The notes under the pieces: model-generated
Databases searched by the model: none
Seen by the model: only the letters and a program-made list of their open reading frames with translations
Told to the model about the DNA's origin: nothing
Assembly (NCBI RefSeq): GCF_025628885.1
Contig: NZ_JAOTIF010000001.1
Coordinates: forward strand, 496,001-560,000
DNA from: Paraflavisolibacter caeni
GTDB taxonomy: Bacteria > Bacteroidota > Bacteroidia > Chitinophagales > Chitinophagaceae
Length of the DNA: 64,000 nucleotides
Direction of reading: 5' to 3'
Position numbers and translations under genes: made by a program
Shown here: positions 2,659 to 39,113 of the stretch, piece after piece
Numbering within the stretch: the stretch's first letter is position 1
How the letters are laid out: the number at the start of each line of letters is the position of its first letter

Positions 2659-4155
2659 ATGCGTATTATAAATAGAATCAATATTCTTATTTGTGTTGTT
2701 GCAATCAGTATGCTGGTTTCTTGCAAAAAGTCTTATTTAGAGACTACGGCAACCGACCGCATCAGCGAGGACATTGCCCTAAAAACAACCGATGGTTGTT
2801 GGAAATTACTCAATGGGATACACAGGATTTTGTATACATCGCATATGGGACGCCAGGACAGGGTTGGTCAGGGTGCCAATATGATGGATATGGATGCAAT
2901 GGGAGACGATATTACCCTATCGTCTGTTCAGGACTGGTATATAGCTCCCTACCTGTGGTATAATACCAATAGGAATCAGTTGTCTGCATTAGTGTATTTC
3001 AATTACTTTTTCTATTATGAGATTATCAACAATGCCAATCTTCTGATAGATAATGTAAAAGCCTCTAAGGGAAGTGAGGAAGATAAGAAAGCTATCTTAG
3101 GACAGGCTTATGCCTACCGTGGGTGGGCTTACTTTCAGATGATACAATTGTATGGAGAACGCTTCAATGCCAATGGCACTAATACAGGACTTGGATTGAG
3201 AATTGTTCGTCATAGTCAGGAACCCGTGAAACCAAGAGCAAGTGTAGCAGTGGTGTATAATCTGATTAACTCTGATTTGGATAGTGCTATTTTATTGTTG
3301 GATGGTTATAAGCGTGCCAATAAGTCGCATCTGAATCAAAGTGTAGCGCAAGGTTTCAAAGCAAGAGTAGCCCTGACCCAGCAGAATTGGTCTACCGCAG
3401 CCACTATGGCAGCAGCAGCCCGGTCCGGTTATGCACTTATGGATTCGGTATCTTATATGTCAGGGTTTAACGACAACAATAACCCTGAATGGATGTGGGG
3501 ATCGCATCAGCAGGAAAATCAAACGACCTATTTTGCATCTTTCTTCGCTTATATGTCGTGCAATTTCCCTTCACAAAACATCATTAGTTCACCAAGAGCT
3601 ATGTTGGATTCTGTGTACAGGTTAATTCCCAGTACAGATGTTCGCTGGCAGTTATGGGATTCAACAGGCGCAAACCTTTCGTTCCCTGTTCCAAAAGACG
3701 CATCCGGAAAAGATGTTGGTACACGTGTGAAGTTTATGCAACGTAAATTCAAAGTGGCGAATCCCGAACTAAGTATAGGTGATTTACCATTGATGCGTGC
3801 ATCTGAAATGTATTTAATAGAAGCTGAAGCCAATGCTCAGATGGGTAATAGTGCAAAGGCTGCTGCAGCATTATATCCATTGGCAAAGCAAAGGGATGCA
3901 GCTTATATGCTTTCTACTAAAACGGGTACAGCCTTACTAAACGAAATTTCATTTCAAAGACGTATTGAGCTTTGGGGAGAAGGTTTCCGCTTTTATGATC
4001 TTAAGCGTTTGAACCAGCCTTTAGACAGAAGCAGACACACGTTTTATAAATCTTATCAAAAGTCGGTTCCTGCCGGTGATATAAAATGGCAGTTTCTTAT
4101 TCCTCAGGCAGAGATTGATGCCTCTGGAAAGATTATCGAACAAAATCCTTTATAA
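2659..4155 (+). CDS. SusD/RagB-family nutrient-binding lipoprotein
   Basis: Surface lipoprotein of 498 residues that would cap the SusC barrel encoded just upstream. The N-terminus is a type II signal peptide with lipobox LVSC (Cys22) followed by KKSYLE, the pattern at the start of many SusD proteins. The middle is alpha-helical and TPR-like (for example AILGQAYAYRGWAYFQMIQLYGE). The C-terminal third carries the SusD signature LPLMRASEMYLIEAEANAQMG, then RRIELWGEGFRFYDLKRL, and it ends with IPQAEIDASGKIIEQNPL, all hallmarks of the family. It lies 8 bp after SusC and 30 bp before the LRR lipoprotein gene, so it is co-transcribed. Family assignment is certain; ligand unknown. Confidence 0.95.
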   Translation: MRIINRINILICVVAISMLVSCKKSYLETTATDRISEDIALKTTDGCWKLLNGIHRILYTSHMGRQDRVGQGANMMDMDAMGDDITLSSVQDWYIAPYLWYNTNRNQLSALVYFNYFFYYEIINNANLLIDNVKASKGSEEDKKAILGQAYAYRGWAYFQMIQLYGERFNANGTNTGLGLRIVRHSQEPVKPRASVAVVYNLINSDLDSAILLLDGYKRANKSHLNQSVAQGFKARVALTQQNWSTAATMAAAARSGYALMDSVSYMSGFNDNNNPEWMWGSHQQENQTTYFASFFAYMSCNFPSQNIISSPRAMLDSVYRLIPSTDVRWQLWDSTGANLSFPVPKDASGKDVGTRVKFMQRKFKVANPELSIGDLPLMRASEMYLIEAEANAQMGNSAKAAAALYPLAKQRDAAYMLSTKTGTALLNEISFQRRIELWGEGFRFYDLKRLNQPLDRSRHTFYKSYQKSVPAGDIKWQFLIPQAEIDASGKIIEQNPL

Positions 4156-24807: not shown

Positions 24808-26508
24808 TCAAATCTCATTCTGTTTTAATTGCTTTAGTGCATAGTCTACTGCCCTGGCAGTTAATGCCATATAGGTCAATGATGGGTTCTGTGTAGATGT
24901 AGAAGTCATACAGGCTCCATCTGTCACAAAGACATTGGTACAGGTATGCAACTGATTCCACTTATTTAAGAGCGAGGTTTTGGGGTCATGGCCCATACGT
25001 ACACCGCCCATTTCATGAATGTCCAAACCCGGGGCTTGTCTGGAGTCCGTGGTTTTGATATTTATGAATCCTGCTTTGGTATACATCTCTGTCATCTGCT
25101 CAAAAAAGTCTTTCAGCATCTTCTCATCATTGTCGTCATAATCAACGGCTATGCTTAACTGAGGGATGCCCCATTCGTCTTTTTTATTATGATCTAGGGC
25201 AACATAATTGCTTTCTTTCGGAATGGTTTCCCCCATTATGTGCGAATTCACACTCCATGGCCCTAATTCCTGCTTCATCAGGTTTTCTTTAAGTTGTAAA
25301 CCAAAGGCATTACCATCTATTTTCATTGGCCTGCTTGCGGCAAATCCAGCTGCATAACCACGTAGAAAATCCGTTTCCTGTTTAAATACATTCCTGAATC
25401 TTGGAATATATGCACTGGTAGGACGGCGTCCGTCTGTAGTAAAATCTTTGAATCCATCGTATTGTGCTGAAATGCGACCACGGTAATTATGAAATGCTAC
25501 ATACTTGCCCAGCAAGCCGTTATCATTTCCCATGCCGTTGGGGAATCGCTTTGATATTGAATTGAGTAATAACAGGTTGGTGTTGAGTGCTCCGGCATTT
25601 ACAAAAATGATTGGTGCATAGAAGTCTATTGCATCTTTGGATTGGGCATCGATTACCCTGACGCCGGTAGCTTTTCCTTTCTGTTCATCATAGATGATAG
25701 AATGAGCTACAGAATAAGGACGCAGGGTAAGATTACCTGTTTTTTCCGCCCATGGAATAGTAGAAGCGTTAGAACTAAAATAACCGCCAAATGGACAACC
25801 GCGCTGGCATAAGGTTCTCTTCTGGCATTGCGCCCTTCCTTGCTCCAGGTGCATAGGCTGTGGTTGAGTAAGGTGCGCACAACGGGCATAAATAATATGG
25901 CGGTCTTTATAATTTTTAGTTACAAAATCTTTGAAATAGTTTTCGACGCAGGTTAGTTCAAGGGGAGGCAGAAATTCACCGTCAGGTAGTTGCGGTAAGC
26001 CATCTTTATTACCGGAAATACCAGCAAATTTTTCTACGTAACTGTACCAGGGAGCAAGGTCATTGTACCTGATCGGCCAATCGACTGCAAAACCATCACG
26101 GGCGGGGCCTTCAAAGTCAAAGTCACTCCAGCGTTGCGTTTGTCTGGCCCAAAGTAAAGACCTTCCGCCTACCTGGTAGCCCCGGATCCAATCAAATGGC
26201 TTTTCCTGCACATATGGATGTTCCTGGTCTTTTACAAAGAAATGCGCAGCGTCTTCTCGAAAAGCATAACAACGGCTTACAATCGGATTCTCTTCCTCGA
26301 CCTTTTTGGGCATTTGTCCACGGTGCTCAAACTCCCAGGGATATTTATTGGCGGTAGGGTAGTCTTTCAGATGCCTGACATCACGCCCACGTTCCAATAC
26401 CAGTGTTTTCAGCCCTTTTTCACAGAGTTCTTTGGCTGCCCATCCGCCACTGATGCCAGAGCCAATAACAATTGCATCAAACCTGCGGTTTTTAATATCA
26501 TTACCCAT
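24808..26508 (-). CDS. GMC-family FAD oxidoreductase
   Basis: A 566-residue flavoenzyme. The N-terminal Rossmann motif is AIVIGSGISGGWAAKEL, followed by LVLERG; the GMC FAD-site region reads GYQVGGRSLLWARQTQR. The C-terminal GMC_oxred_C portion has HEMGGVRMGHDPKTS and VTDGACMTSTSTQNPSLTYMALTARAVDY. There is a Cys cluster CQKRTLCQRGCPFGGY near residue 240, seen in the gluconate/fructose-dehydrogenase-like GMC subgroup of bacteria. No signal peptide is visible. The upstream gene in the operon (49 bp gap) encodes a gluconate-2-dehydrogenase-subunit-3-like protein, so the pair should form a sugar- or sugar-acid-oxidising dehydrogenase; substrate unknown. Confidence 0.95.
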   Translation of the reverse strand: MGNDIKNRRFDAIVIGSGISGGWAAKELCEKGLKTLVLERGRDVRHLKDYPTANKYPWEFEHRGQMPKKVEEENPIVSRCYAFREDAAHFFVKDQEHPYVQEKPFDWIRGYQVGGRSLLWARQTQRWSDFDFEGPARDGFAVDWPIRYNDLAPWYSYVEKFAGISGNKDGLPQLPDGEFLPPLELTCVENYFKDFVTKNYKDRHIIYARCAHLTQPQPMHLEQGRAQCQKRTLCQRGCPFGGYFSSNASTIPWAEKTGNLTLRPYSVAHSIIYDEQKGKATGVRVIDAQSKDAIDFYAPIIFVNAGALNTNLLLLNSISKRFPNGMGNDNGLLGKYVAFHNYRGRISAQYDGFKDFTTDGRRPTSAYIPRFRNVFKQETDFLRGYAAGFAASRPMKIDGNAFGLQLKENLMKQELGPWSVNSHIMGETIPKESNYVALDHNKKDEWGIPQLSIAVDYDDNDEKMLKDFFEQMTEMYTKAGFINIKTTDSRQAPGLDIHEMGGVRMGHDPKTSLLNKWNQLHTCTNVFVTDGACMTSTSTQNPSLTYMALTARAVDYALKQLKQNEI

Positions 26509-26557: not shown

Positions 26558-27121
26558 TCAGACATGTTGCTTATTCCCTTTCAGGGGTTGTGGTAGTTGT
26601 ATACATCCTTTAAAGCGCCCGGGCGTTAATTCGTAGACCTGCACTTTAGTTAAATAAAATTTTGAGGACATAAAACCTTGAATCGTTAATCCCTTTATTG
26701 TTTTGTAGAAAGCCTGGACATCTTCGGGCACGTTTTTCTTTCTTTCCATTTGCAGTAAAACACCGTCCCGTTGAGTGGGCGTTAACTCTATAAATGATTT
26801 TTGGGTGCTTTTTTGAACAAACTTGCCAAAAGCTTTTAGGCCCTTTTCAAACTTCTTCTGATCTTCTTTTGTCCTGCAATCATCTATCGTTTTTAAGATA
26901 TAAAGGTGTGTATAGGTGTCTTTCGCTCCAGGTGTATCTGTTTTTGGAATGATGGTTTCCGAGAGTTCTGCCAGCAAATGCTCGTCATTGCCCGTCAGGG
27001 CGAGATTCTTCAGTTGAATAGATGTTGTTGCATCGTTTTTATGCAGGCAAGATGGAAGAAAGATCACTCCTCCGGTAACGACTAAAAGATTTTTTAGGAC
27101 AGATCTCCTGTCTAAATTCAT
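26558..27121 (-). CDS. Gluconate 2-dehydrogenase subunit 3-like protein with twin-arginine signal
   Basis: A 187-residue protein. I take the ATG at 27121 (MNLDRRSVLKNLLVVTGGV) because a further 67 upstream codons show no domain. The N-terminus has Arg5-Arg6, a hydrophobic stretch and a lipobox-like FLPSC (Cys25), matching a Tat-exported lipoprotein. The rest fits the small subunit of FAD-dependent gluconate dehydrogenases: LLAELSETIIPKTDTPGAKD and the tail SKFYLTKVQVYELTPGRFKGC. It would carry the folded GMC flavoprotein out of the cytoplasm by Tat hitchhiking. The cytochrome c subunit found with some family members is not next to it. Confidence 0.9.
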   Translation of the reverse strand: MNLDRRSVLKNLLVVTGGVIFLPSCLHKNDATTSIQLKNLALTGNDEHLLAELSETIIPKTDTPGAKDTYTHLYILKTIDDCRTKEDQKKFEKGLKAFGKFVQKSTQKSFIELTPTQRDGVLLQMERKKNVPEDVQAFYKTIKGLTIQGFMSSKFYLTKVQVYELTPGRFKGCIQLPQPLKGNKQHV

Positions 27122-27413
27122 ATGGCAATGTTTAAGAAAGTCTATTAAGCGAAATCTGAAGTTAAAGGATGTTTTGCGAAATATGTAGAATGTGGAGTAG
27201 GAATTTTGGATATGCAGGTGTTGAAATAGGTAACTAGAGGAGAACTCATAGAACAGCATCCTTGTCACAATAATATTTATATAGCCAAGTTGATATTTTT
27301 TTATAGGTATTCGATATTTCAAAATTTAAAATCTGGTTTTAGGAAATAATTAACAAAAAAAAGGGTTAAATTAATAGTAGTATTTTAATGTTCTCACACT
27401 AAAATTGCTTGCT

Positions 27414-30400
27414 ATGCCATTGAAACTAATTGCACGGAGGCTGCTATTGGCCCTGTGCCTAACCTGTTTTACTTCACTTTTATTTGCACAGCAGAAGACA
27501 TTTACGGGAAAGATAACCGATATGAATGGGCAACCCGTTGGGGGGGCAACCATTACGGTTAAAGGAACAACGCTCGCTGCATTGACAGATGATAATGGTA
27601 ATTTCAGCATTTCTGTTCCTGCTGGCAGGGAGGCCCTCATTGTTTCATATGTAGGATATGAAACAAGGGAAATTCCGCTGGGGGCAGAAAACAATCTTTC
27701 CCTTTCACTGAAACCAACTACTACATCACTAAACGAGGTAGTGGTAACGGGGTACTCAACGCAGAAAAAAAAGGATATTATCGGGGCGGTTTCTGTGGTG
27801 AATACAGAAGATCTTAAATCAACACCCTCTGCCAACTTATCCGCCCAGTTACAGGGCCGTGCAGCCGGTGTTGTGGTAAGCAATACTGGGCAGCCTGGTT
27901 CTGGTGCTGTTGTACGGATCAGGGGTTTCCAATCGTTCGGAAACAACAACCCATTATATATAATTGATGGAGTTCCTACAGAAGATCCATCGTCGTTAAA
28001 CCCACAGGATATTGAATCCATGCAGGTATTAAAAGACGCCACTGCTTCAGCTGTTTATGGAACGCGGGCTGCCAATGGTGTAGTGATCGTCACTACAAAG
28101 CAAGGCAGAATGGGAAAGGCCCAGGTTTCGTATGATGGTTACGTAGGTTTTCAAACCATTACAGATGACATGGTACCTGATTTGCTGAACACCAGTCAAT
28201 ATATGGAGTACCTGACAAGGTCCACAACTCATAGTAATGACCCTGCATTGAATTATAAACACCCGGTTTTTGGTGCCAATGGATCGTTTGCAGTCCCTGA
28301 TTATATTGTGGTAAGCTCCGCATTTAAAGGTGGTGTTCCCGCTGGTGATCCAAAAGCAGATCCTTCCTTGTATTCACTGGATCCTTTGTACCAGATATTA
28401 AAAACCACACCCGAAGGGACTGACTGGTTTGATGCCGTTCTTAGAAATGGCATTATCCAAAGCCACCAGGTTACTGCTACAGGGGGTACCGATAAGGCGC
28501 TTTATTCTGTCGGATTGAATTATTTTGACCAGGAAGGAGTTTTCAAGTATACAGATTATAAACGTTATACGGTTCGTGCCAATACCAGTTTTAAGCCCAA
28601 AAGCTACTTTAGATTTGGAGAAAACCTCCAGGTAAGTTATGAAGACCGCCTCGGTGGTGATCAAAGAGGAGAGGAAGGCGCCTGGTCTTGGGCATATAGA
28701 ATGGTACCTTATATACCTCTTTACGACATTAAAGGCGGTTTTGGAGGTAATGCTGTTGGTGAATCGGGAAATGGTTCCAGTCCTCTTGCTACGTTGATCA
28801 GGGATTCTGACGACAAGAACATTTATTACAAGCTTTTTGGAAATGTGTTTGCAGAAGTTATTCCCGTTAAATACCTGACCGCACGTACTTCATTTGGCGT
28901 TGATCTAGGTAGTCAGTATCAAAGAGATATAGCAAGAAAGACATATGAACGTGCAGAAAACCGGGCAGTCACTCAATTAAATGAGCGGACATACAACAGC
29001 ATTAACTGGACCTGGACCAATACGCTAACTTTTCAAAAACAAATTGCCACAGATCATGACCTGAAAATTTTGGTGGGCACCGAAGCAATTAAAAGGAAGT
29101 TCAAGGTTGTGCGTGCTTCTGGACAAAGGTTTGATTTTGACAATGACGATTTTATACAGCTTGACAGAGCCGGGCTGTTACCTGGTGATAGAAACGTTTT
29201 CAATTACAACCTGGACGAGGAAAACATCCCAGGCTTAGAAACTGTAACGATTAGTTCTCTATTTGCAAGAGCGGATTATGCTTATAAAGGAAAATATCTT
29301 TTGAACGCAACGATAAGAAGAGACGGAGCTTCTGTTTTTGGTCCGGAAAACCGTTATGCTAATTTCCCTTCTGTTGGTGTAGGCTGGCGTATTTCTGAGG
29401 AAGACTTTATGAAATCACTCACTTGGGTAACCGATCTGAAATTACGTGCCGGCTGGGGTGAAGTGGGCAGTATTGGTAATGTACGTGCACTCAATCAATA
29501 TACATCCTTTACATCTACTGCAGGCTCAACCAACTATGATATTGGCGGTAATAATACTTCTGCTGTTACAGGTTATAGAGTAGGCACGATTGGAAATCCT
29601 TCTACCAAATGGGAAACGACTGAATCTAAGAATATTGGCCTGGATCTTACCATTTTTCAGGGGAAATGGGATTTCACTTTTGACTACTACCATAATGACA
29701 CCAAAGACCTGTTGGTGCCCAAGTTGAGAAACGGTTTAGAGCCTCTTGCTACGCAGCCGCAGGAAAACATAGGCACTATGCGCAACAGTGGATTTGAGAT
29801 TTCAGTAAACCACCATGGCGCCATTACCACTGATCTGAATTATGATTTTTCGCTGAACTTCTCTCATTATAAGAATGAACTGACAAAAATGAATGAGGAA
29901 GGTACGGTTCGATTGGTAAATTTTGATCGTTTAAATAATGCCTTAATAACCCGTGCAGGAGATCCGATTTCTTCTTTTTACGGATACCAGATTGATGGTT
30001 TCTACAATACCGACGCGGATGTGAACAGGGGACCTAAGATTAATGGCGCCCCAGGAACTATAGGCACCTGGAAGTATAAAGACATAGACGGTGATGGAGA
30101 TATAACGACAGCAGACAGGGTAATATTGGGCAGTCCACATCCTGATTTCCAATTAGGTGCTAACCTGGGACTCAACTGGAAAAACTTTGATTTCAACCTA
30201 TTCCTGTTTTGGAATCAAGGCAATAAAATATACAACTATACAAAGTATTACACTGATATGCGTGTGTTTGTGGGTGGCGTAAGCACAAGAGTGCTAAACG
30301 ATACCTGGACCCCGCAAAATACGAATGCAAAACTTCCAGTACTGCAACCTGGTCAAAACGGTTTTACTTCATTTGTCCGCGCTAACTCTAACTCATACTA

Positions 30401-30674
30401 TGTAGAAGATGGTTCTTATCTAAGAGCCAAAAACATTCAATTGGGATACACCTTGCCTAAGAGCATGATCAGCAAGATAGGAATGTCTAATATCAGGTTG
30501 TATGTTCAGGCCCAAAACCTGTTCACCATCACTAATTACAGTGGCCCTGATCCAGATCTGAGCGTGATCAACAACAGGGTAGATGATATTTCAACCGATA
30601 CCTTTATAGGTGTTGATCGAGCCGGGTTCCCAACTCCTAAGCAGTTTCTCTTAGGATTAAATGTTTCTTTCTAA
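27414..30674 (+). CDS. SusC/RagA-family TonB-linked outer-membrane transporter
   Basis: A complete 1086-residue SusC protein. The ATG at 27414 (MPLKLIARRLLLALCLTC) is preferred over a TTG at 27405. Domain order: signal peptide ending SLLFAQ, a carboxypeptidase-D-like domain (residues about 25-105: KTFTGKITDMNGQPVGGATI), a TonB-box-like region, the plug domain with NEVVVTGYSTQKKKDI, QLQGRAAGVVVSNTGQPGSG and PLYIIDGVPTEDP, then a long barrel ending with FLLGLNVSF. Its SusD partner follows after 19 bp. It lies divergent to the GMC/subunit-3 operon, with a 292-bp gap that shows no strong promoter match. Confidence 0.97.
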   Translation: MPLKLIARRLLLALCLTCFTSLLFAQQKTFTGKITDMNGQPVGGATITVKGTTLAALTDDNGNFSISVPAGREALIVSYVGYETREIPLGAENNLSLSLKPTTTSLNEVVVTGYSTQKKKDIIGAVSVVNTEDLKSTPSANLSAQLQGRAAGVVVSNTGQPGSGAVVRIRGFQSFGNNNPLYIIDGVPTEDPSSLNPQDIESMQVLKDATASAVYGTRAANGVVIVTTKQGRMGKAQVSYDGYVGFQTITDDMVPDLLNTSQYMEYLTRSTTHSNDPALNYKHPVFGANGSFAVPDYIVVSSAFKGGVPAGDPKADPSLYSLDPLYQILKTTPEGTDWFDAVLRNGIIQSHQVTATGGTDKALYSVGLNYFDQEGVFKYTDYKRYTVRANTSFKPKSYFRFGENLQVSYEDRLGGDQRGEEGAWSWAYRMVPYIPLYDIKGGFGGNAVGESGNGSSPLATLIRDSDDKNIYYKLFGNVFAEVIPVKYLTARTSFGVDLGSQYQRDIARKTYERAENRAVTQLNERTYNSINWTWTNTLTFQKQIATDHDLKILVGTEAIKRKFKVVRASGQRFDFDNDDFIQLDRAGLLPGDRNVFNYNLDEENIPGLETVTISSLFARADYAYKGKYLLNATIRRDGASVFGPENRYANFPSVGVGWRISEEDFMKSLTWVTDLKLRAGWGEVGSIGNVRALNQYTSFTSTAGSTNYDIGGNNTSAVTGYRVGTIGNPSTKWETTESKNIGLDLTIFQGKWDFTFDYYHNDTKDLLVPKLRNGLEPLATQPQENIGTMRNSGFEISVNHHGAITTDLNYDFSLNFSHYKNELTKMNEEGTVRLVNFDRLNNALITRAGDPISSFYGYQIDGFYNTDADVNRGPKINGAPGTIGTWKYKDIDGDGDITTADRVILGSPHPDFQLGANLGLNWKNFDFNLFLFWNQGNKIYNYTKYYTDMRVFVGGVSTRVLNDTWTPQNTNAKLPVLQPGQNGFTSFVRANSNSYYVEDGSYLRAKNIQLGYTLPKSMISKIGMSNIRLYVQAQNLFTITNYSGPDPDLSVINNRVDDISTDTFIGVDRAGFPTPKQFLLGLNVSF

Positions 30675-30693
30675 TCCTTAAATCTTACTAAGT

Positions 30694-32433
30694 ATGAAAA
30701 ATATATTGATAAAATATTTATTTGTAACACTGGTTGCAGTCACGATTGTCCTATATGCCTGTAAAGACGACTTTTTAGAGCCTGCCCCCCAAGGCGTTTA
30801 TACTGAAGCGCAACTCACCAACAAGCAAGGGCTTAATGGCGCATTGATCAATGCTTATGCAACATTGGATGGTAATGAAGCTACCTGGTATGCGGGCGCC
30901 AGCAATTGGCTTTGGGGCAGTGTATTAGGGGGAGATGCTTACGAAGGCACAGAACCAACTGACCAGGTAGATCTAAACCCTATTATGCGTTTTGAAGTGC
31001 AATTCAGTAACCCTTATGTTTTAAATAAATGGAATGGGATCTGGGATGGTGTTGGACAGGCCAACCAGGTGTTGAGATTACTGCCTAAGGTTAAGGATAT
31101 GAGTGATGTTGAGAAAAAACAGGTCGAGGCCGAAGCTCGCTTTTTAAGAGGACATCATCATTTTGAAGGGAAGAAGGTGTTCGGTAACATTCCTTTTATT
31201 GACGAAACTGTAACAGATTTTAAAGTTCCCAATACCGATGGCAGTGGCAATTATGTGAACATCTGGCCACAGATTGAAGCAGATTTTAAATTCGCATTTG
31301 ATAATCTAGATGAAGTGAAGCCACACGTTGGCAGGGCCAATAAATGGGCTGCAGCAGCTTTCCTGGCAAAAGCTTATATGTTCCAGAATAAATTTGCTGA
31401 AGCGAAACCTCTTTTTGACCAGATCATTGCAAATGGGAAGACCAGCAGAGGCGTTAGATATCAGTTGGCGATCAATTATCATGAAAACTTCAGGGTGGCT
31501 ACAGAAAATAACCGGGAAACAATTTTTTCAATACAAGCGTCTTATGGTGATGGATCTAATACCAATGGAAGTTACGATCTGACTTTGGCTTTTCCACATT
31601 CTCCTTCAACGCCTGGAGCAGGATGTTGTGGATTTTTTCAACCATCACAGAGCCTGGTAAATGCTTATCAAACAAATTCTGCTGGTTTGCCTTTGCTTGA
31701 TACTTATAACAATTCTAATGTTACAAGTGATGAGAACTTACTTTCCTCTGAACCTTTTACTCCATATGCCGGTAATCTTGACCCACGACTGGATTGGTCT
31801 GTAGGAAGGAGAGGCATTCCTTATTTGGATTGGGGAATTCACCCCGGTAGAAGCTGGATTAGAAAAGTTGATTGGGGCGGACCTTACTCTCCTAAGAAAA
31901 ATGTGTTTTATAAAGCAGATCTTGGTACACTGGCAGGTGCAGTAGGCTGGGGTTGGAATAACGATGCCTTGAACTATACCATCATGCGTTATGCTGATGT
32001 ATTGCTGATGGCTGCAGAAGCTGAAGTGGAGGTTGGTAGTTTAGCCAAGGCAACAGAATATGTGAATATGATAAGGGCCAGAGCCGCTGCTTCGCCGGTA
32101 AAAAAAGATGACGGAACAAATGCTGCTAATTATGTCATTGGTCCATATCCAACTTTTACGAATAAAGATGAGGCAAGGAAGGCCGTACGCTTTGAAAGAA
32201 AACTGGAACTGGCAATGGAAGGCCATCGTTTATTTGACCTGAATCGCTGGGGCATTGCAGCCGAAACTATAAATGGTGAATACCTGTCTAAAGAATCATC
32301 CAGACGTGCTTCTGCATTAGGAGGCGTTGTTTTTCAAAAAGGAAAACATGAGTACTTACCTATTCCAGAGTTCGCTATCACTCAAAGTATGAAAGATGGT
32401 AAGGCAACTTTAAAACAAAATCCTGGTTACTAA
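30694..32433 (+). CDS. SusD/RagB-family nutrient-binding lipoprotein
   Basis: A 579-residue surface lipoprotein paired with the SusC gene upstream. Lipobox LYAC (Cys23) followed by KDDFLEPAPQGVYTEAQL, a standard SusD start. Helical, TPR-like core (FLRGHHHFEGKKVFGNIPF, AFLAKAYMFQNKFAEA) and C-terminal signature IMRYADVLLMAAEAEVEVGSL, RFERKLELAMEGHRLFDLNRWG, and LPIPEFAITQSM...LKQNPGY. It probably covers the SusC barrel and binds the substrate. A hairpin downstream may lower read-through into the rest of the locus. Confidence 0.97.
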   Translation: MKNILIKYLFVTLVAVTIVLYACKDDFLEPAPQGVYTEAQLTNKQGLNGALINAYATLDGNEATWYAGASNWLWGSVLGGDAYEGTEPTDQVDLNPIMRFEVQFSNPYVLNKWNGIWDGVGQANQVLRLLPKVKDMSDVEKKQVEAEARFLRGHHHFEGKKVFGNIPFIDETVTDFKVPNTDGSGNYVNIWPQIEADFKFAFDNLDEVKPHVGRANKWAAAAFLAKAYMFQNKFAEAKPLFDQIIANGKTSRGVRYQLAINYHENFRVATENNRETIFSIQASYGDGSNTNGSYDLTLAFPHSPSTPGAGCCGFFQPSQSLVNAYQTNSAGLPLLDTYNNSNVTSDENLLSSEPFTPYAGNLDPRLDWSVGRRGIPYLDWGIHPGRSWIRKVDWGGPYSPKKNVFYKADLGTLAGAVGWGWNNDALNYTIMRYADVLLMAAEAEVEVGSLAKATEYVNMIRARAAASPVKKDDGTNAANYVIGPYPTFTNKDEARKAVRFERKLELAMEGHRLFDLNRWGIAAETINGEYLSKESSRRASALGGVVFQKGKHEYLPIPEFAITQSMKDGKATLKQNPGY

Positions 32434-32499
32434 TTGGGCCTTGAGAGTGCTGAACATTTATTTTATTATTCAGAAATAACCATACGGAATAATTATACG

Positions 32500-32523
32500 G
32501 AACCACCTTTCTTAAGGTGGTTC
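32500..32523 (+). terminator. Hairpin between susD and the FG-GAP gene (attenuator candidate)
   Basis: Perfect 10-bp stem GAACCACCTT / AAGGTGGTTC with a 4-base loop, followed by TTCCTGTTTG, a poor T-run. It sits 66 bp after the SusD stop. A leaky terminator would give strong susCD and weaker downstream expression. Confidence 0.5.
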
Positions 32524-32611
32524 TTCCTGTTTGTGTTATTGATACTATATGCTTTTGAATCATGTAACGATATGGTTTTTTTAGAGCATTCTTTGTAACT
32601 TACCTGATACA

Positions 32612-35600
32612 ATGCTTACCATATATCACCGCTTTTTGCTTCTTCTTCTCACTGCAGTTGCTTTTAGCTGCCAGGGTAAAAAAATGTTTGAACAAATTGA
32701 TTCCTCTCATTCCGGAATTCATTTCAATAATCAAATAGAAGATGACGATACACTTAATATTTTAAATGTAGAAAATATCTATAACGGAGGTGGTGTTGGT
32801 ATTGCCGATTTTAATAACGATGGCTTACAGGATATTTACTTTACGGCCAATATGGTTTCCAATAAACTGTACCTGAATAAAGGTGATTTTCAGTTTGAAG
32901 ATATTACGGATGATGCAGGTGTTGGTGGTGATGGCCGCTGGTGCCGCGGCGTAAGCATTGTGGATATCAATAATGATGGTTTGATGGATCTATACGTTTC
33001 TGCTTCTTTGCTATCAAACCCTAAAAAAAGAGAAAACCTTTTGTACATCAATGAAGGGATGAATGCCAAAGGGATTCCTCATTTTATAAATAGGGCAGTG
33101 GAATATGGACTGGCTGATACCAGTCATTCAACCATGGCTGCTTTTTTTGATTACGACAATGATGGAGACCTGGATATGTATCTGTTGGTAAATGAAATTG
33201 TGAAAGACCAGTATCCAAATACCTTCCGGCCCATTTTAAAAAACAGCGAACATCCTAATACTGATAAACTATTTCGAAATGACTGGGACAATCATCTGAA
33301 GCATCCTGTATTTACTGATGTTTCAAAGGAGGCAGGTATAACTGTTGAGGGATATGGTCACGGGGTAAATATTACGGATATCAATAAAGATGGCTGGAAA
33401 GATATTTATGTCACTAATGATTTCCTTTCCAATAACAATCTCTTTATCAACAATGGTAATGGTTCTTTTACCGATCAGGCAGCAACTTATTTTAAGCATA
33501 CTTCCGAAAACTCAATGGGGCAGGATGTGATGGATATCAATAATGATGGCCTGGCGGATGTCATTGAAGCTGACATGAATCCTGAGGACAACTTTCGCAA
33601 AAAAATGATGTTGAATCCATTAGGTTATCAGAGATACCAGAACAATGAATATTACGGTTATCAGTATCAATATGTTCGGAATGTAGTGCAGTTGAATCAA
33701 GGGCCGCGGTTAGGTCAGAACGATTCTGTTGGCGTACCTATATTTAGTGACATAGCTTTTTCTTCTGGCGTGGCTGAAACTGATTGGAGTTGGGCACCGG
33801 TAGTTGCTGATTTTGATAATGATGGCTTTCGTGATATTATCATTACCAATGGCTTTCCCAAAGATGTTACTGATCACGATTTCATAACCTTTCGAAACAA
33901 GGCTTGGCTATTGGCTTCTAAAAAGGAAATCCTGGAACAAATTCCACAGGTAAAGATTGCAAACTATGCATTTAAGAATAATGGTGATCTTACGTTCAAA
34001 AATGTAACAAAAGCATGGGGCTTAGCAACTCCAACGTTTGCCAATGGTGCTGCATATGCTGACCTGGATAATGATGGTGATCTGGATTTTGTGGTGAATA
34101 ACATTAACGATGAAGCTTCTATTTATAAAAACAAAGAAAGGGAACACAACCATGAAAAAAATCATTATCTCCGTATCCACCTTGAAGGCGATACAATGAA
34201 TATAAATGGCTTTGGAACCTGGGTAGAACTTTATTACCAGGGCAAACAACAGGTATATGAACAAACACCTTACCGTGGCTATTTATCATCGATTCAGCAA
34301 GACCCGCAATTTGGTTTGGGAGCCGTAGCATCTATTGATTCTGTTGTTATAAAATGGCCTAATGGCAAAATGCAATTATTGCAGAACATAAAGGCTGACC
34401 AATTGTTGAAAGTAAACATTAAGAATGCCACTCAGCATTATTCCTTTACTCATGAAACTGTTGCTCAAAATGCAATATTCCGTGAAGTAACTGGTGAACG
34501 CAACATTCAGTATGTGCATCAGGACAGTGATTTTGTGGATTTCAATATTCAAAAACTATTGCCTCACAAGTTTACTGAGTACGGGCCTGCATTGGCAGTT
34601 GGAGATGTAGATGGAAATGGCCTGGAGGATGTCATTAGCGGCGGTTCTTTTTACTATGGTGAACAAGTTTTTTTACAGCAATTGGATGGCCGGTTTGTTC
34701 AACGAAACCTGCAAGAAAAAAAGACAAATAAAGGTGCAGAAGATATGGGTATCTTGTTGTTTGATGCTGATGGAGATCATGATCTGGATTTATACGTGGC
34801 CAGTGGCGGATATGAAGCACCAGCCAACAGTATTGCTTACCGGGACAGGTTGTATGTAAACGATGGGAAAGGAAATTTTACTCCAGATACTACTGCCCTG
34901 CCGCAGAATCTAACCAGTAAATCCTGTGTTCGTGCTGCTGATTATGATAACGATGGTGATTTGGATTTGTTTATTGCCGGCCGTATTGATCCCTGGAATT
35001 ATCCTAAACCGGTTTCCAGTTTTATCTACCGAAATGATTCGCAAAATGGAGTGATCAAATTCTCAGATGTCACTGCTTCAATAGCAAAGCCGCTGCTCAA
35101 CATTGGTCTTATTTGTGATGCTCTATTCACAGATTATGATCATGATGGCTGGCAAGATTTATTGCTTGCGGGAGAATGGAAGCCAATTACTTTACTGCGC
35201 AATGAAAAAGGCAGATTTACAAATATTCATCTCCCTATTTCAAATTTATTCGGTTGGTGGAATACAATTGCTCCTGGTGATTTTGATAACGACGGTGATG
35301 TAGATTATATAGTGGGCAACCTGGGTAAAAACTCATTCTACCGGGCCAGTGAAAAATACCCGGTTTGCATTACCGCTAAAGATTTTGACAACAATGGCAG
35401 CTACGATGCTTTCCCATCACTTTTCTTACCGGTATCACAAAATGATACAACCAGGAAAGAGTTCCCCGCACACCTAAGAGATGAAGTGATAAAACAAATG
35501 ATTAGTTTAAGAACGAAGTTCCAGAATTATCATTCGTTTGCCATAGCACCAATGGATGAGATGCTTACGGAAGAGCAGCGCAAAGATGCATTGCGCTTAC

Positions 35601-36190
35601 AGGCAAATTATCTGCAATCGGCCTATATGCGCAATGATGGAAATGGTAAGTTTATTCTGCTTCCTCTGCCCATGCAGGCGCAGATTTCAGTTCTGAATGG
35701 TATGGTTGCTGAGGATTTTGATGGTGATGGTAACCTTGACCTGGTCATTAATGGCAATGATTATGGAGCAGAGGTATCGGTAGGCCGCTATGATGCTTTA
35801 AATGGGTTATACCTGAAAGGTGACGGAAAAGGTAATTTTTCATCTTTATCAATTTTAAACAGTGGCATTTTTATTCCAGGCAATGGAAAGGCCTTGGTAA
35901 AACTACGTTCTCAATCGGGTGATTGCCTTTTAGTAGCCAGTCAGAACAAAGGTCCACTGAAGATTTTCCAATTAAAAAAGAGGGTTCAATGTATTCCCTT
36001 ACAGCCTTCTGATGTCAGTTTTTTGATAAGATATAAGGATGGGCGGATACAAAGGGGAGAAGTATATTATGGTTCTTCTTTTCTGTCACAGTCCGGACGC
36101 TTTTTAATCATAAACAATAAAGTGACTTCAGTGGAAGTGATGGATGGCAAGGGAAGAAAGAGGATCATTAGCGGGACTCTGGCCTCATAA
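32612..36190 (+). CDS. FG-GAP/VCBS-repeat lipoprotein with ASPIC/UnbV domain (CRTAC1-like)
   Basis: A 1192-residue predicted lipoprotein (lipobox AFSC, Cys20). At least 14 calcium-binding loops of the type D-x-[DN]-x-[DN]-G-x-x-D are visible (FNNDGLQD, INNDGLMD, YDNDGDLD, VDGNGLED, FDGDGNLD and others), arranged in two beta-propellers. Between them, about residues 530-600, lies an ASPIC/UnbV domain (LYYQGKQQVYEQTPYRGYLSS then VVIKWPNG). These propellers resemble integrin-alpha and bind proteins or glycans. The FG-GAP plus UnbV arrangement is common beside SusCD pairs in Bacteroidota, but its job is undefined. It is the third gene of a five-gene locus. Confidence 0.92.
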   Translation: MLTIYHRFLLLLLTAVAFSCQGKKMFEQIDSSHSGIHFNNQIEDDDTLNILNVENIYNGGGVGIADFNNDGLQDIYFTANMVSNKLYLNKGDFQFEDITDDAGVGGDGRWCRGVSIVDINNDGLMDLYVSASLLSNPKKRENLLYINEGMNAKGIPHFINRAVEYGLADTSHSTMAAFFDYDNDGDLDMYLLVNEIVKDQYPNTFRPILKNSEHPNTDKLFRNDWDNHLKHPVFTDVSKEAGITVEGYGHGVNITDINKDGWKDIYVTNDFLSNNNLFINNGNGSFTDQAATYFKHTSENSMGQDVMDINNDGLADVIEADMNPEDNFRKKMMLNPLGYQRYQNNEYYGYQYQYVRNVVQLNQGPRLGQNDSVGVPIFSDIAFSSGVAETDWSWAPVVADFDNDGFRDIIITNGFPKDVTDHDFITFRNKAWLLASKKEILEQIPQVKIANYAFKNNGDLTFKNVTKAWGLATPTFANGAAYADLDNDGDLDFVVNNINDEASIYKNKEREHNHEKNHYLRIHLEGDTMNINGFGTWVELYYQGKQQVYEQTPYRGYLSSIQQDPQFGLGAVASIDSVVIKWPNGKMQLLQNIKADQLLKVNIKNATQHYSFTHETVAQNAIFREVTGERNIQYVHQDSDFVDFNIQKLLPHKFTEYGPALAVGDVDGNGLEDVISGGSFYYGEQVFLQQLDGRFVQRNLQEKKTNKGAEDMGILLFDADGDHDLDLYVASGGYEAPANSIAYRDRLYVNDGKGNFTPDTTALPQNLTSKSCVRAADYDNDGDLDLFIAGRIDPWNYPKPVSSFIYRNDSQNGVIKFSDVTASIAKPLLNIGLICDALFTDYDHDGWQDLLLAGEWKPITLLRNEKGRFTNIHLPISNLFGWWNTIAPGDFDNDGDVDYIVGNLGKNSFYRASEKYPVCITAKDFDNNGSYDAFPSLFLPVSQNDTTRKEFPAHLRDEVIKQMISLRTKFQNYHSFAIAPMDEMLTEEQRKDALRLQANYLQSAYMRNDGNGKFILLPLPMQAQISVLNGMVAEDFDGDGNLDLVINGNDYGAEVSVGRYDALNGLYLKGDGKGNFSSLSILNSGIFIPGNGKALVKLRSQSGDCLLVASQNKGPLKIFQLKKRVQCIPLQPSDVSFLIRYKDGRIQRGEVYYGSSFLSQSGRFLIINNKVTSVEVMDGKGRKRIISGTLAS

Positions 36191-36225
36191 ACTAATTTCA
36201 AATCAGAAAAAATTTCAGCACCAAG

Positions 36226-37779
36226 ATGATCAAAATGCGTCAGGCTATTTATGGGTTTCTGAGCTGCTCTTCTATTTTGGTCATGTTTTATTCCTGCCGG
36301 AACTATCATAGAAATCAGTCGCATAAAAATGTTCCTGTATCCAGCATTCGAAAAGGCGAACAATTAGCTGCAAAATACTGCCAGTCATGTCATTTGCTTC
36401 CAGAGCCTTCACAGTTAAATGCTAAAAGCTGGGAAGAAGGTGTTTTGCCTAATATGGGACCCTACCTTGGCATTTTTGCTTATGATTTTAAAGTTTATCC
36501 TTCAGCTAGGAAAGACCCGAATTTGCAACCTGGCTTTTATCCTTCCAGGCCTGTATTGTCTGCGGTTGAATGGCAGCATATACTGGATTATTATTCGGCA
36601 ACTGCCCCTGATTCTTTGCCTGGCCAAAATCGCGAAATGCCAATTAGAACAGGCCTGCCACTTTTTGATGTTGAAATACCCATTTCAAATTCCTTCGATC
36701 CAACAGTATCTTATATTAAAATTGAAAAACGCAGGTTATTACTGCATGATTTGAAATCACAAAAACTTTGGGTCTACGATAGTTCATTGGCAGTGGTGGA
36801 TTCGCTGAACTCCAAGGGCTCTATTGTGGATATAGACTTTCAGGAAGACAAGCTGCTGGCCTGCGATATAGGGGAACTCAATCCTAACAATGGAAGATTT
36901 GGAAAACTGGCTTATGTTCATTTTGACGCATCAGGTAAATTGGAGCAGGATATAAGCGTGATCATCAAGGATTTGGCCCGGCCCGTGCAAATTACAGAGG
37001 CAGATTTGGATGTTGATGGAAAGATGGACCTTGTGGTTTGCGAATTTGGCTTCTTAAACGGGAGCTTGTCCTGGTTTCAGAATATGGGAAATGGAAAATT
37101 CCAGCGACATGTCTTACAACCTTTAGCTGGGGCCACTAAAGTTTATGTTCAAGATGAAAACAAGGATGGCCTGCCTGATCTTTGGGTTTTGTTTGCCCAG
37201 GGTAGGGAAGGTGTTTTTCTGTATACCAACAAGGGAAAAGGGCAATTCAGAGAAGACGAGGTATTGCGCTTTCCTCCTTTGAATGGTTCAAGTTTTTTTG
37301 AATTGGTAGATTGCGACAAAGATGGTTTTAAGGATATTGTATATACCTGTGGCGATAACGCCGATTACTCCAAAGTATTAAAGCCTTATCACGGTGTTTA
37401 TATTTTTTTAAACGATGGTAATAACAGATTTAAGCAAAGATTCTTTTACCCAATTAATGGATGCTATAAAGCTTTAGCTCGTGATTACGATGGAGACGGA
37501 GATCTGGATATTGCCACTATTTCATTTTTTGCAGATTATGCACATCAACCAGAAGAAGGTTTTGTATATTTTGAAAATAAAGGTAATTTCAAGTATACGC
37601 CTTCCACCTTTCCCGAAAGTAAGTTGGGTCGATGGTTGACAATGGATGCTGGAGACCTGGACGGTAATGGAACGATTGATCTTGTATTGGGAAATTATTC
37701 TGGCGGGCCGCAGTTGATGACACCATCAAGTGACTGGAAGAAAGGCCCCTTTTTTATTTTGCTGAAAAGCAAGTATTGA
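36226..37779 (+). CDS. Lipoprotein with haem-c motif and FG-GAP propeller
   Basis: A 517-residue predicted lipoprotein (lipobox FYSC, Cys24). Residues 44-110 contain a single c-type haem motif CQSCH (52-56) and a possible axial Met at LPNMGPYLG (Met77), as in small monohaem cytochromes. From about residue 145 onward there is an FG-GAP propeller with calcium-loop motifs (LDVDGKMD, ENKDGLPD, CDKDGFKD, YDGDGDLD, LDGNGTID). The fusion suggests a surface or periplasmic electron-transfer protein joined to a recognition propeller (inference). It follows the UnbV-type gene by 35 bp and precedes the haloperoxidase-like gene by 11 bp, so it is surely co-transcribed with the latter. Confidence 0.85.
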   Translation: MIKMRQAIYGFLSCSSILVMFYSCRNYHRNQSHKNVPVSSIRKGEQLAAKYCQSCHLLPEPSQLNAKSWEEGVLPNMGPYLGIFAYDFKVYPSARKDPNLQPGFYPSRPVLSAVEWQHILDYYSATAPDSLPGQNREMPIRTGLPLFDVEIPISNSFDPTVSYIKIEKRRLLLHDLKSQKLWVYDSSLAVVDSLNSKGSIVDIDFQEDKLLACDIGELNPNNGRFGKLAYVHFDASGKLEQDISVIIKDLARPVQITEADLDVDGKMDLVVCEFGFLNGSLSWFQNMGNGKFQRHVLQPLAGATKVYVQDENKDGLPDLWVLFAQGREGVFLYTNKGKGQFREDEVLRFPPLNGSSFFELVDCDKDGFKDIVYTCGDNADYSKVLKPYHGVYIFLNDGNNRFKQRFFYPINGCYKALARDYDGDGDLDIATISFFADYAHQPEEGFVYFENKGNFKYTPSTFPESKLGRWLTMDAGDLDGNGTIDLVLGNYSGGPQLMTPSSDWKKGPFFILLKSKY

Positions 37780-37790
37780 AATAGACCGCC

Positions 37791-39113
37791 ATGAAAAATG
37801 TATTGCTCATTTTGATGTCCTTTGTTTTTCTCGCATCATGTAAACAAACAGGTCAAAAAGCTGATGATCATTTGCTGGCTGATCCCAACCTGCTTCATCG
37901 CAATATGAAGCAGCTAACCGAAGTGATCATTCACGATGTCTTTGGTCCACCGGTTGCCAGCCGTATCTACTCCTATACTTCTTTGGCGGCCTATGAAGCA
38001 ATCCGTTTTGAGCAGGCAGGATATCCTTCACTGGCTGCTCAGCTGAACGGCTTTGCGCCAATGCCTTCTCCTGAAAAAGGAAAACAATACAATTATTTAC
38101 TGGCTGCTACCAAATCATTTTTTACGGTGGCAGAAAAAATTACGTTCTCAAAAGACACGTTGCTTAACTATCAGAATAAGGTTTATGCAGATTTTAAATC
38201 ACTCCTTGATATAGACACTTACGAGCGTTCTCTTGATTTGGGAGAGGCTATTGGAAATAAGGTATTGGAAAGAGCAGCAAAGGATAATTATAAGGAAACT
38301 CGTGGCATGGCCAAATTTCTGGGTAACAACCAGGCGGGAAAATGGAGACCTACTCCGCCAGATTACCTGGATGGAACAGAACCTTATTGGAGCCTGATCA
38401 AGCCTTTAGCACTTGATTCAGCTGCACAATTTAAATGCCCACCTCCACCCCTCTACAAGGTGGATACAATAAGTGATTTTTATAAGATGGTAAAAGAAGT
38501 TTATACGATTGGTAATAACCTCACAGAAGAACAGAGAACCATTGCGCATTATTGGGATGATAATCCCTTTGTAATGGAACATTCCGGCCACCTAATGTAT
38601 GCCAACAAAAAAATTACCCCGCCAGGACATTGGATAGGCATTACAGCTATAGCCTGCAAAAAGAAGCAACTGAACGCTATAGAAACTGCACAAGCTTATG
38701 TAGTAACATCTATTGCAATGTTTGATACATTTATCGCTTGCTGGGAAGAAAAATACCGTTCCCAGGTAGTTCGTCCTATTACAGTAATCAACGAGCTTAT
38801 AGACCGCAATTGGCAGCCAATGTTGCAAACACCAGCCTTCCCGGAATATACAAGTGGACATAGCGGGATTTCAGCAGCCGCAGCTACCGTGCTTACCAAA
38901 CGCTTTGGAGATAACTTTGCTTTTGAAGACACCAGCGACTTGGAATATATTGGCTCGAAGCGCAATTTTCAATCTTTTGACCAGGCAGCGCAGGAAGCTT
39001 CCATCAGCAGGGTGTATGGCGGAATTCATTACCGTACAAGTGTTGATGCAGGAGCAAGACAAGGTAAAACAATTGCAGCGTTTATCAATAATAAGTTGCA
39101 ACTAAGAGAGTAG
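37791..39113 (+). CDS. Vanadium-dependent haloperoxidase / PAP2-family lipoprotein
   Basis: A 440-residue predicted lipoprotein (lipobox LASC, Cys17). All three parts of the PAP2/vanadium-haloperoxidase active site are intact: K-x6-RP (Lys321, Arg328, KYRSQVVRP), PEYTSGH (Ser355-Gly356-His357) and SR-x5-H (Ser406, Arg407, His413; SRVYGGIHY). The long spacing and the PEYTSGHSG context match bacterial vanadium haloperoxidase-like proteins over small PAP2 lipid phosphatases, though the two cannot be separated by sequence alone. Last of the SusCD locus genes, 11 bp after the haem-c gene. It may halogenate or dephosphorylate the transported compound (inference). Confidence 0.92.
   Translation: MKNVLLILMSFVFLASCKQTGQKADDHLLADPNLLHRNMKQLTEVIIHDVFGPPVASRIYSYTSLAAYEAIRFEQAGYPSLAAQLNGFAPMPSPEKGKQYNYLLAATKSFFTVAEKITFSKDTLLNYQNKVYADFKSLLDIDTYERSLDLGEAIGNKVLERAAKDNYKETRGMAKFLGNNQAGKWRPTPPDYLDGTEPYWSLIKPLALDSAAQFKCPPPPLYKVDTISDFYKMVKEVYTIGNNLTEEQRTIAHYWDDNPFVMEHSGHLMYANKKITPPGHWIGITAIACKKKQLNAIETAQAYVVTSIAMFDTFIACWEEKYRSQVVRPITVINELIDRNWQPMLQTPAFPEYTSGHSGISAAAATVLTKRFGDNFAFEDTSDLEYIGSKRNFQSFDQAAQEASISRVYGGIHYRTSVDAGARQGKTIAAFINNKLQLRE

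Follow-up and report, generated by a model that had tools for sequence, protein, structure and literature searches.

Zobellia-type vanadium haloperoxidase genes lie close to CRTAC1-like UnbV propeller genes, frequently with SusCD, in a Paraflavisolibacter locus and its relatives

A 64,000-nt stretch of the Paraflavisolibacter caeni genome (contig NZ_JAOTIF010000001.1, positions 496,001 to 560,000 of the forward strand; hereafter the window) carries five plus-strand genes for a SusC–SusD pair, a propeller protein with an UnbV domain, a mono-haem c/propeller protein and a vanadium-dependent haloperoxidase (VHPO) of the Zobellia iodoperoxidase family. Comparison with related loci identifies the UnbV and VHPO genes as the core of this arrangement and SusCD as a frequent partner; the haem-c/propeller protein is a lineage-restricted accessory. 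We tentatively read the locus as an envelope module for halide oxidation, with VHPO and propeller at its core and import linked to SusCD, a reading to which we give somewhat less than an even chance. All five open reading frames (ORFs) are present in the order and place given by an earlier model-written note on this DNA (the original prediction):

27405..30674, plus strand: SusC/RagA TonB-linked outer-membrane transporter (TIGR04056, 876.5 bits; Plug and TonB barrel domains)
30694..32433, plus strand: SusD-like lipoprotein (SusD_RagB, 156.4 bits; hydrophobic N terminus ending in Cys)
32499..32524, plus strand: terminator- or attenuator-like hairpin that separates susD from the lipoprotein genes (stem of 11 bp with a weak T tract)
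32612..36190, plus strand: CRTAC1-like FG-GAP propeller with UnbV domain, second FG-GAP region and lipoprotein-type N terminus (1192 aa)
36226..37779, plus strand: mono-haem c/FG-GAP propeller protein, lipoprotein-type N terminus (CQSCH, three FG-GAP_3 stretches)
37791..39113, plus strand: VHPO of the Zobellia iodoperoxidase family with an N terminus of lipoprotein type (phmmer match, vanadate-site residues)

The susC gene may start at a TTG (27405) or at an in-frame ATG at 27414, where the original prediction began it, and the gaps between the five genes are, in order, 19, 178, 35 and 11 nt.

The haloperoxidase, the UnbV propeller and SusCD

Among solved structures, phmmer finds 4cit/4usz as the best and only full-length relative of the last protein (E = 1.3e-131, 442.7 bits, query residues 1–438); four further, far weaker matches are named vanadium haloperoxidases or NapH1/NapH3. 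4USZ is the vanadium iodoperoxidase of Fournier et al. 2014, so named in PMC5064120. The family was aligned in 116 rows plus 4cit. In what we take to be Zobellia numbering, K324, R331 and H360 are present in 116/116 rows and R410 and H416 in 115/116, one row being unreadable, and all five vanadate-binding or catalytic residues (Lys, Arg, His, Arg, His) occur in the window VHPO. W321 (114/116 rows) and F353 (110/116) likewise match the Zobellia galactanivorans iodoperoxidase. The original prediction had named a PAP2/vanadium haloperoxidase as the last gene, which the PAP2 domain (31.9 bits) and the full-length match bear out, and its proposal of an oxidative halogenation enzyme gains support from the same homology and the intact vanadate site. 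That the protein is a haloperoxidase is well supported and halide oxidation is the best reading of its function.

The predicted UnbV/FG-GAP protein of 1192 residues is confirmed: Pfam finds six FG-GAP_3 stretches (PF13517) and an UnbV_ASPIC domain (PF07593, 74.3 bits), and both Pfam and the structural model give the order that defines the CRTAC1/UnbV family, an FG-GAP propeller followed by the UnbV_ASPIC domain. By sequence it matches murine CRTAC1 (9etn) with E = 1.8e-10. Its predicted structure (pLDDT 88.9, from a 42-row alignment) has a propeller fold for which 9etn is the clear best Foldseek match, with a TM score of 0.73 on target length. It differs from the CRTAC1/ASPIC-UnbV family in being bacterial and in having a second FG-GAP region and a lipoprotein-type N terminus. 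The protein contains 11 Dx[DN]xD[GN] motifs; the accessible part of PMC3123361 describes propeller motifs of this type as binding calcium in several solved proteins, and these motifs suggest that the UnbV propeller may do so as well.

By Pfam and NCBIfam the first two genes, for a SusC-type TonB barrel next to a SusD lipoprotein, constitute a SusCD uptake system. As in polysaccharide utilization loci (PULs), this pair heads a run of lipoprotein genes, but the enzyme here is a redox enzyme: none of the five genes matched a glycosidase or lyase model of Pfam or NCBIfam (a scan without a CAZyme-specific library), in agreement with the original prediction, and the CAZymes tied to SusCD that characterise a PUL were not seen among them. 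Our literature search, which did not include the 2014 Zobellia iodoperoxidase paper, returned no paper joining UnbV with SusD or UnbV with a haloperoxidase; for haloperoxidase and SusD together it returned only PMC5064120, which merely counts SusD proteins, and nothing else that it listed was recognisable as this module. The accessible parts of PMC11871015 and PMC8490876 give no gene context for haloperoxidases, and that of PMC9296495 reports induction of vIPO3 on a brown alga.

Conservation of the UnbV–VHPO pair

The search for related loci comprised 46 loci from named records and 294 genomes of the family, 153 of them with matches. For synteny, places were picked by score instead of randomly: 40 of the top-scoring 46, 14 with lower scores and six stretches of the window's own genome. 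The counts concern 86 distinct VHPOs that score 530 bits or more, 73 with at least 5.5 kb of upstream DNA and 47 with at least 11 kb. A same-strand UnbV gene is found in the 5.5 kb upstream of 57 of the 73, no more than 400 nt away in 38 of them. With at least 11 kb in view, UnbV is found in 38/47 loci (nine are UnbV-less) and UnbV plus SusC or SusD in 31/47, or 29 when the cut-offs are slightly narrower. Restricted to the closest relatives (640 bits or more, 5.6 kb or more), the count with UnbV is 40/44, and 8/39 directly adjacent UnbV/VHPO pairs overlap by exactly 4 bases. The order recurs in several families, in support of a conserved multi-gene unit. A class-wide sample (198 genomes, 47 with matches) with 29 stored loci, whose flanks reach at most about 1.5 kb, has same-strand UnbV in 14/29 (13 times upstream, once downstream). 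In Rhodobacter, Devosia and Rhizobium the order is reversed, the VHPO gene being followed by an FG-GAP/UnbV gene, with a 4-base overlap in two of the three. These alphaproteobacterial VHPO–UnbV pairs lie at:

L050:9980-12867
L051:5150-8154
L052:9791-12817

On a quick VHPO tree of 117 rows, a label for same-strand UnbV within 4.5 kb (65/116) is clustered, requiring 17 changes vs 38.6 after shuffling. The Zobellia enzyme 4cit is placed among Flavobacteriaceae, in a clade where 5/8 flavobacterial loci have UnbV directly upstream of the VHPO; one of its members, L036, reads SusC-SusD-UnbV-UnbV-VHPO. Among the three unlabelled loci of this clade, the stretch of L034 ends 1.1 kb upstream, where the end of SusD is visible. 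Immediately upstream of the VHPO in L041, in the place of UnbV, stand sugar-kinase-, isomerase- and transporter-like genes by sequence reading, and the genes upstream of the L039 VHPO are alike in size to these. In a further variant, L108 (9321-13076), the genes between SusC and UnbV–VHPO encode a SusD of divergent sequence, a protein resembling thioredoxin and a CxxCH/copper-monooxygenase-C-like protein.

The hairpin after susD has a predicted energy of -17.8 kcal/mol (z -4.5). When gaps of 40–600 nt were scanned at a cut-off of -13 kcal/mol or lower and z of -3 or lower, hairpins appeared in 35/37 SusD–UnbV gaps vs 3/26 other gene-pair gaps in the loci; a same-strand VHPO follows in 35/37 of the SusD–UnbV cases. 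Some hairpin-bearing gaps are short (57 nt in L068, 79 nt in L063 and L081) and leave little promoter room after the hairpin, which would favour read-through from susCD. SusCD may, via the hairpin, be expressed above the downstream genes. Scans for sigma-70 promoters (38 vs 35.1 expected) and terminators (10 vs 11.1 expected) gave uninformative counts.

Haem-c and GMC genes

The haem-c/FG-GAP protein was also correctly predicted. It has a single haem-c motif, CQSCH at residue 52, together with its three FG-GAP_3 stretches and four Dx[DN]xD[GN] motifs; no Pfam cytochrome model scores above cut-off on it (best PF13442, E 0.006). CxxCH is present in 23/26 homologous ORFs, the window's excluded (19 distinct genes, four seen twice), and the three homologues that lack it are fragments, truncated where a locus ends. 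C52, C55, H56 and M77 are invariant in 20/20 aligned rows. The predicted model (pLDDT 90.3) is again a propeller, with CRTAC1, integrins and other propellers as best structural matches; aldos-2-ulose dehydratase (TM 0.41) is one among many such matches. Where it occurs near a VHPO the gene stands upstream in 15 loci and downstream in L022, L064, L073, L081 and L082, and it is downstream in the class-wide locus L152 as well.

Two genes divergent from susC are possible partners of the module:

24808-26508, minus strand: GMC oxidoreductase
26558-27322, minus strand: gluconate-2-dehydrogenase subunit-3-like protein

The same pair has the same placement in Cnuella takakiae (L061). Among 24 relatives' loci, four contain a GMC gene where 0.68 genes were expected (P about 0.005, uncorrected for shared ancestry). 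The genome has six GMC genes, two of them near VHPOs, one in the window and the other some 7 kb from the C34 paralogue. This placement echoes the glucose-oxidase and haloperoxidase model proposed for iodine uptake in Arenibacter C-21 (PMC5064120), where uptake requires glucose, oxygen and Ca2+ and where an H2O2-generating or iodide-oxidising system can substitute for glucose (PMC5064120). The genome of this flavobacterium encodes five or more PAP2 proteins homologous to 4USZ. In this the two systems are alike, and the sugar oxidase and Ca2+ requirement there recall the GMC and calcium-propeller genes of the window; for Arenibacter C-21 the comparison draws on the physiology given in PMC5064120. 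All this is only suggestive of the GMC pair as a candidate source of H2O2 or electrons.

Proposed halide oxidation, rival readings and variant loci

In the halide-oxidation reading, the core would consist of two envelope lipoproteins, the CRTAC1-like, calcium-stabilised propeller/UnbV protein and the Zobellia-type VHPO. With H2O2, possibly from nearby GMC sugar oxidases, the VHPO would convert iodide (or bromide) to hypohalous species, and the propeller/UnbV protein would act as its docking or substrate-presenting partner. The SusCD pair, made in excess by partial termination after susD, would import the product or another cargo, and such coupling of halide oxidation to a SusCD pair may hold in most sampled close relatives. 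The mono-haem c/propeller protein would be an addition in the Paraflavisolibacter lineage. A broader version, in which the CRTAC1-like UnbV propeller is the ancestral partner of Zobellia-type VHPOs in Bacteroidota and Alphaproteobacteria, with some losses, and TonB-driven SusCD import takes up an envelope-oxidised halide or halogen-carrying product, strikes us as unlikely; if true, it would describe a SusCD system for halogen instead of glycan. The conserved pair places the family of the crystallised iodoperoxidase in a defined genomic module and points to the UnbV propeller as its partner and to a possible transporter. For the UnbV/CRTAC1-like family, which is poorly understood, it supplies a concrete setting beside an enzyme. 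Coupling of halide oxidation to uptake in this phylum becomes testable through deletion of named genes.

A number of observations weigh against the halide-oxidation reading. No UnbV gene lies inside 5.5 kb of 16/73 VHPOs, although the UnbV–VHPO pair mostly withstands the first refuting condition set by the original prediction, homologous loci in which the genes are not neighbours. Four other VHPO-like places in the same genome have no adjacent UnbV in the stretches examined, nor do the nearest sisters of 4cit, L039 and L041 (support 88): UnbV is 5.1 kb away in L039 and absent from 5.3 kb upstream in L041. In 7/38 UnbV–VHPO loci no same-strand SusC/D was detected upstream. Two of these (L077, L107) have SusC on the other strand and the other five showed no SusC/D in about 20 kb, by a SusD profile that misses some divergent SusD proteins, such as that of L108, found by Pfam. 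The three alphaproteobacterial stretches examined (L050-L052) gave no SusCD match either; together with the seven loci they weaken the predicted link to import as an obligate one. The genome as a whole has 75 SusD matches in 7.0 Mb, so that proximity to SusCD means little by itself. As for the enzyme, position 263 is Tyr in the Zobellia iodoperoxidase but Phe in the window VHPO and in 76/116 rows, and iodide preference is therefore not readable from sequence; the residues that set halide choice are largely unknown according to the accessible part of a 2026 paper (PMC13198595).

Further points on the same side concern expression and the accessory genes. A hairpin between susD and the rest weakens the idea of uniform co-transcription of all five genes. 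In the same genome hairpins follow 17/30 SusD genes, the window's own included (30 of the 75 matches, scanned at the same energy cut over a fixed length of 150 nt and with simpler shuffling), and the hairpin was rejected as a module-specific mark; SusCD operons in general tend to carry one, and UnbV–VHPO loci do so with particular regularity. The haem-c gene is near the VHPO in only 20/86 loci, some of which are cut by contig ends. With this count and its variable position we rejected the protein as a core component, and the predicted movement of electrons as a core function is weakened likewise. Two of the four GMC-bearing loci come from one genus, whose third sampled member has no GMC gene. 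Against the pyranose oxidase model the GMC protein scores 56.7 bits, where the cut-off is 544.9, far below oxidase cut-offs, and the GMC proteins may be dehydrogenases rather than oxidases. Of the coupled surface-capture, redox and uptake system originally proposed, the conserved unit and the halogenation enzyme are supported, while obligate import, electron transfer as a core function and dephosphorylation are weakened. Surface-exposed lipoproteins combine a lipoprotein signal with an acidic surface export signal. A lipobox pattern was found in 43/51 UnbV, 48/76 VHPO, 16/20 haem-c and 31/37 SusD proteins, some picks being plainly wrong, and at least two acidic residues at +2 to +6 occur in one protein per group, SusD included, so that this measure does not discriminate.

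Several of these points would suit a stand-alone UnbV–VHPO envelope unit that removes peroxide or makes hypohalous acid for antagonism or signal quenching, with SusCD merely a common platform of UnbV and its cargo unrelated to halogens. The loci and alphaproteobacterial pairs without SusC/D fit such a unit, as does the abundance of SusD; moreover, the three other UnbV genes of the genome stand beside SusC/D without a VHPO. Since UnbV plus SusC/D occurs in 31 of the 47 loci with long upstream DNA, above incidental proximity, we consider this explanation rather doubtful. A modified PUL, in which the haloperoxidase or haem protein oxidises a polymer, phenolic or glycan, SusCD imports the fragments and GMC and sugar enzymes process them, would account for the SusCD context. 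By sequence reading, aldose-epimerase-, galactokinase- and pfkB-like genes lie nearby, two of them also in L011; Segetibacter L063 has GMC and TIM-barrel neighbours, and L061 an apiosidase/GH5-like neighbour that scores below cut-off. That none of the five genes matched a lyase or glycosidase model argues against it, and we find it quite improbable.

Phosphatases and vanadium haloperoxidases have active-site motifs in common, and the PAP2 match by itself would allow the last protein to be an acid phosphatase of PAP2 type, removing phosphate from a substrate ahead of its uptake, as the original prediction had offered. This is very unlikely: only the PAP2 superfamily domain matched, an iodoperoxidase is the sole solved relative that aligns over the full length, the four remaining solved matches are VHPOs or NapH1/NapH3, and W321 and F353 are as in the iodoperoxidase; both the phosphatase identity and dephosphorylation are disfavoured. 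That the genes are chance neighbours without a joint role, which the high density of SusCD in this genome might suggest, we regard as scarcely credible given the order kept in several families, the 4-base overlaps and the clustering on the VHPO tree.

Finally, some genes recur around the module or its paralogues. A protein of ~645 residues with a CHU_C type IX secretion domain adjoins the module in L067 (10160-12091); L078 (15582-17525) encodes an N-terminal look-alike of it, and L075, L076 and L083 have genes similar in size 3' of the VHPO. A paralogous, mostly UnbV-less VHPO clade has a GH65-type protein beside it in L089 (9572-11614, by Pfam) and a GH65 look-alike by sequence in L101 (10335-12386). 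The window itself has another SusD match at about 3670-4149.

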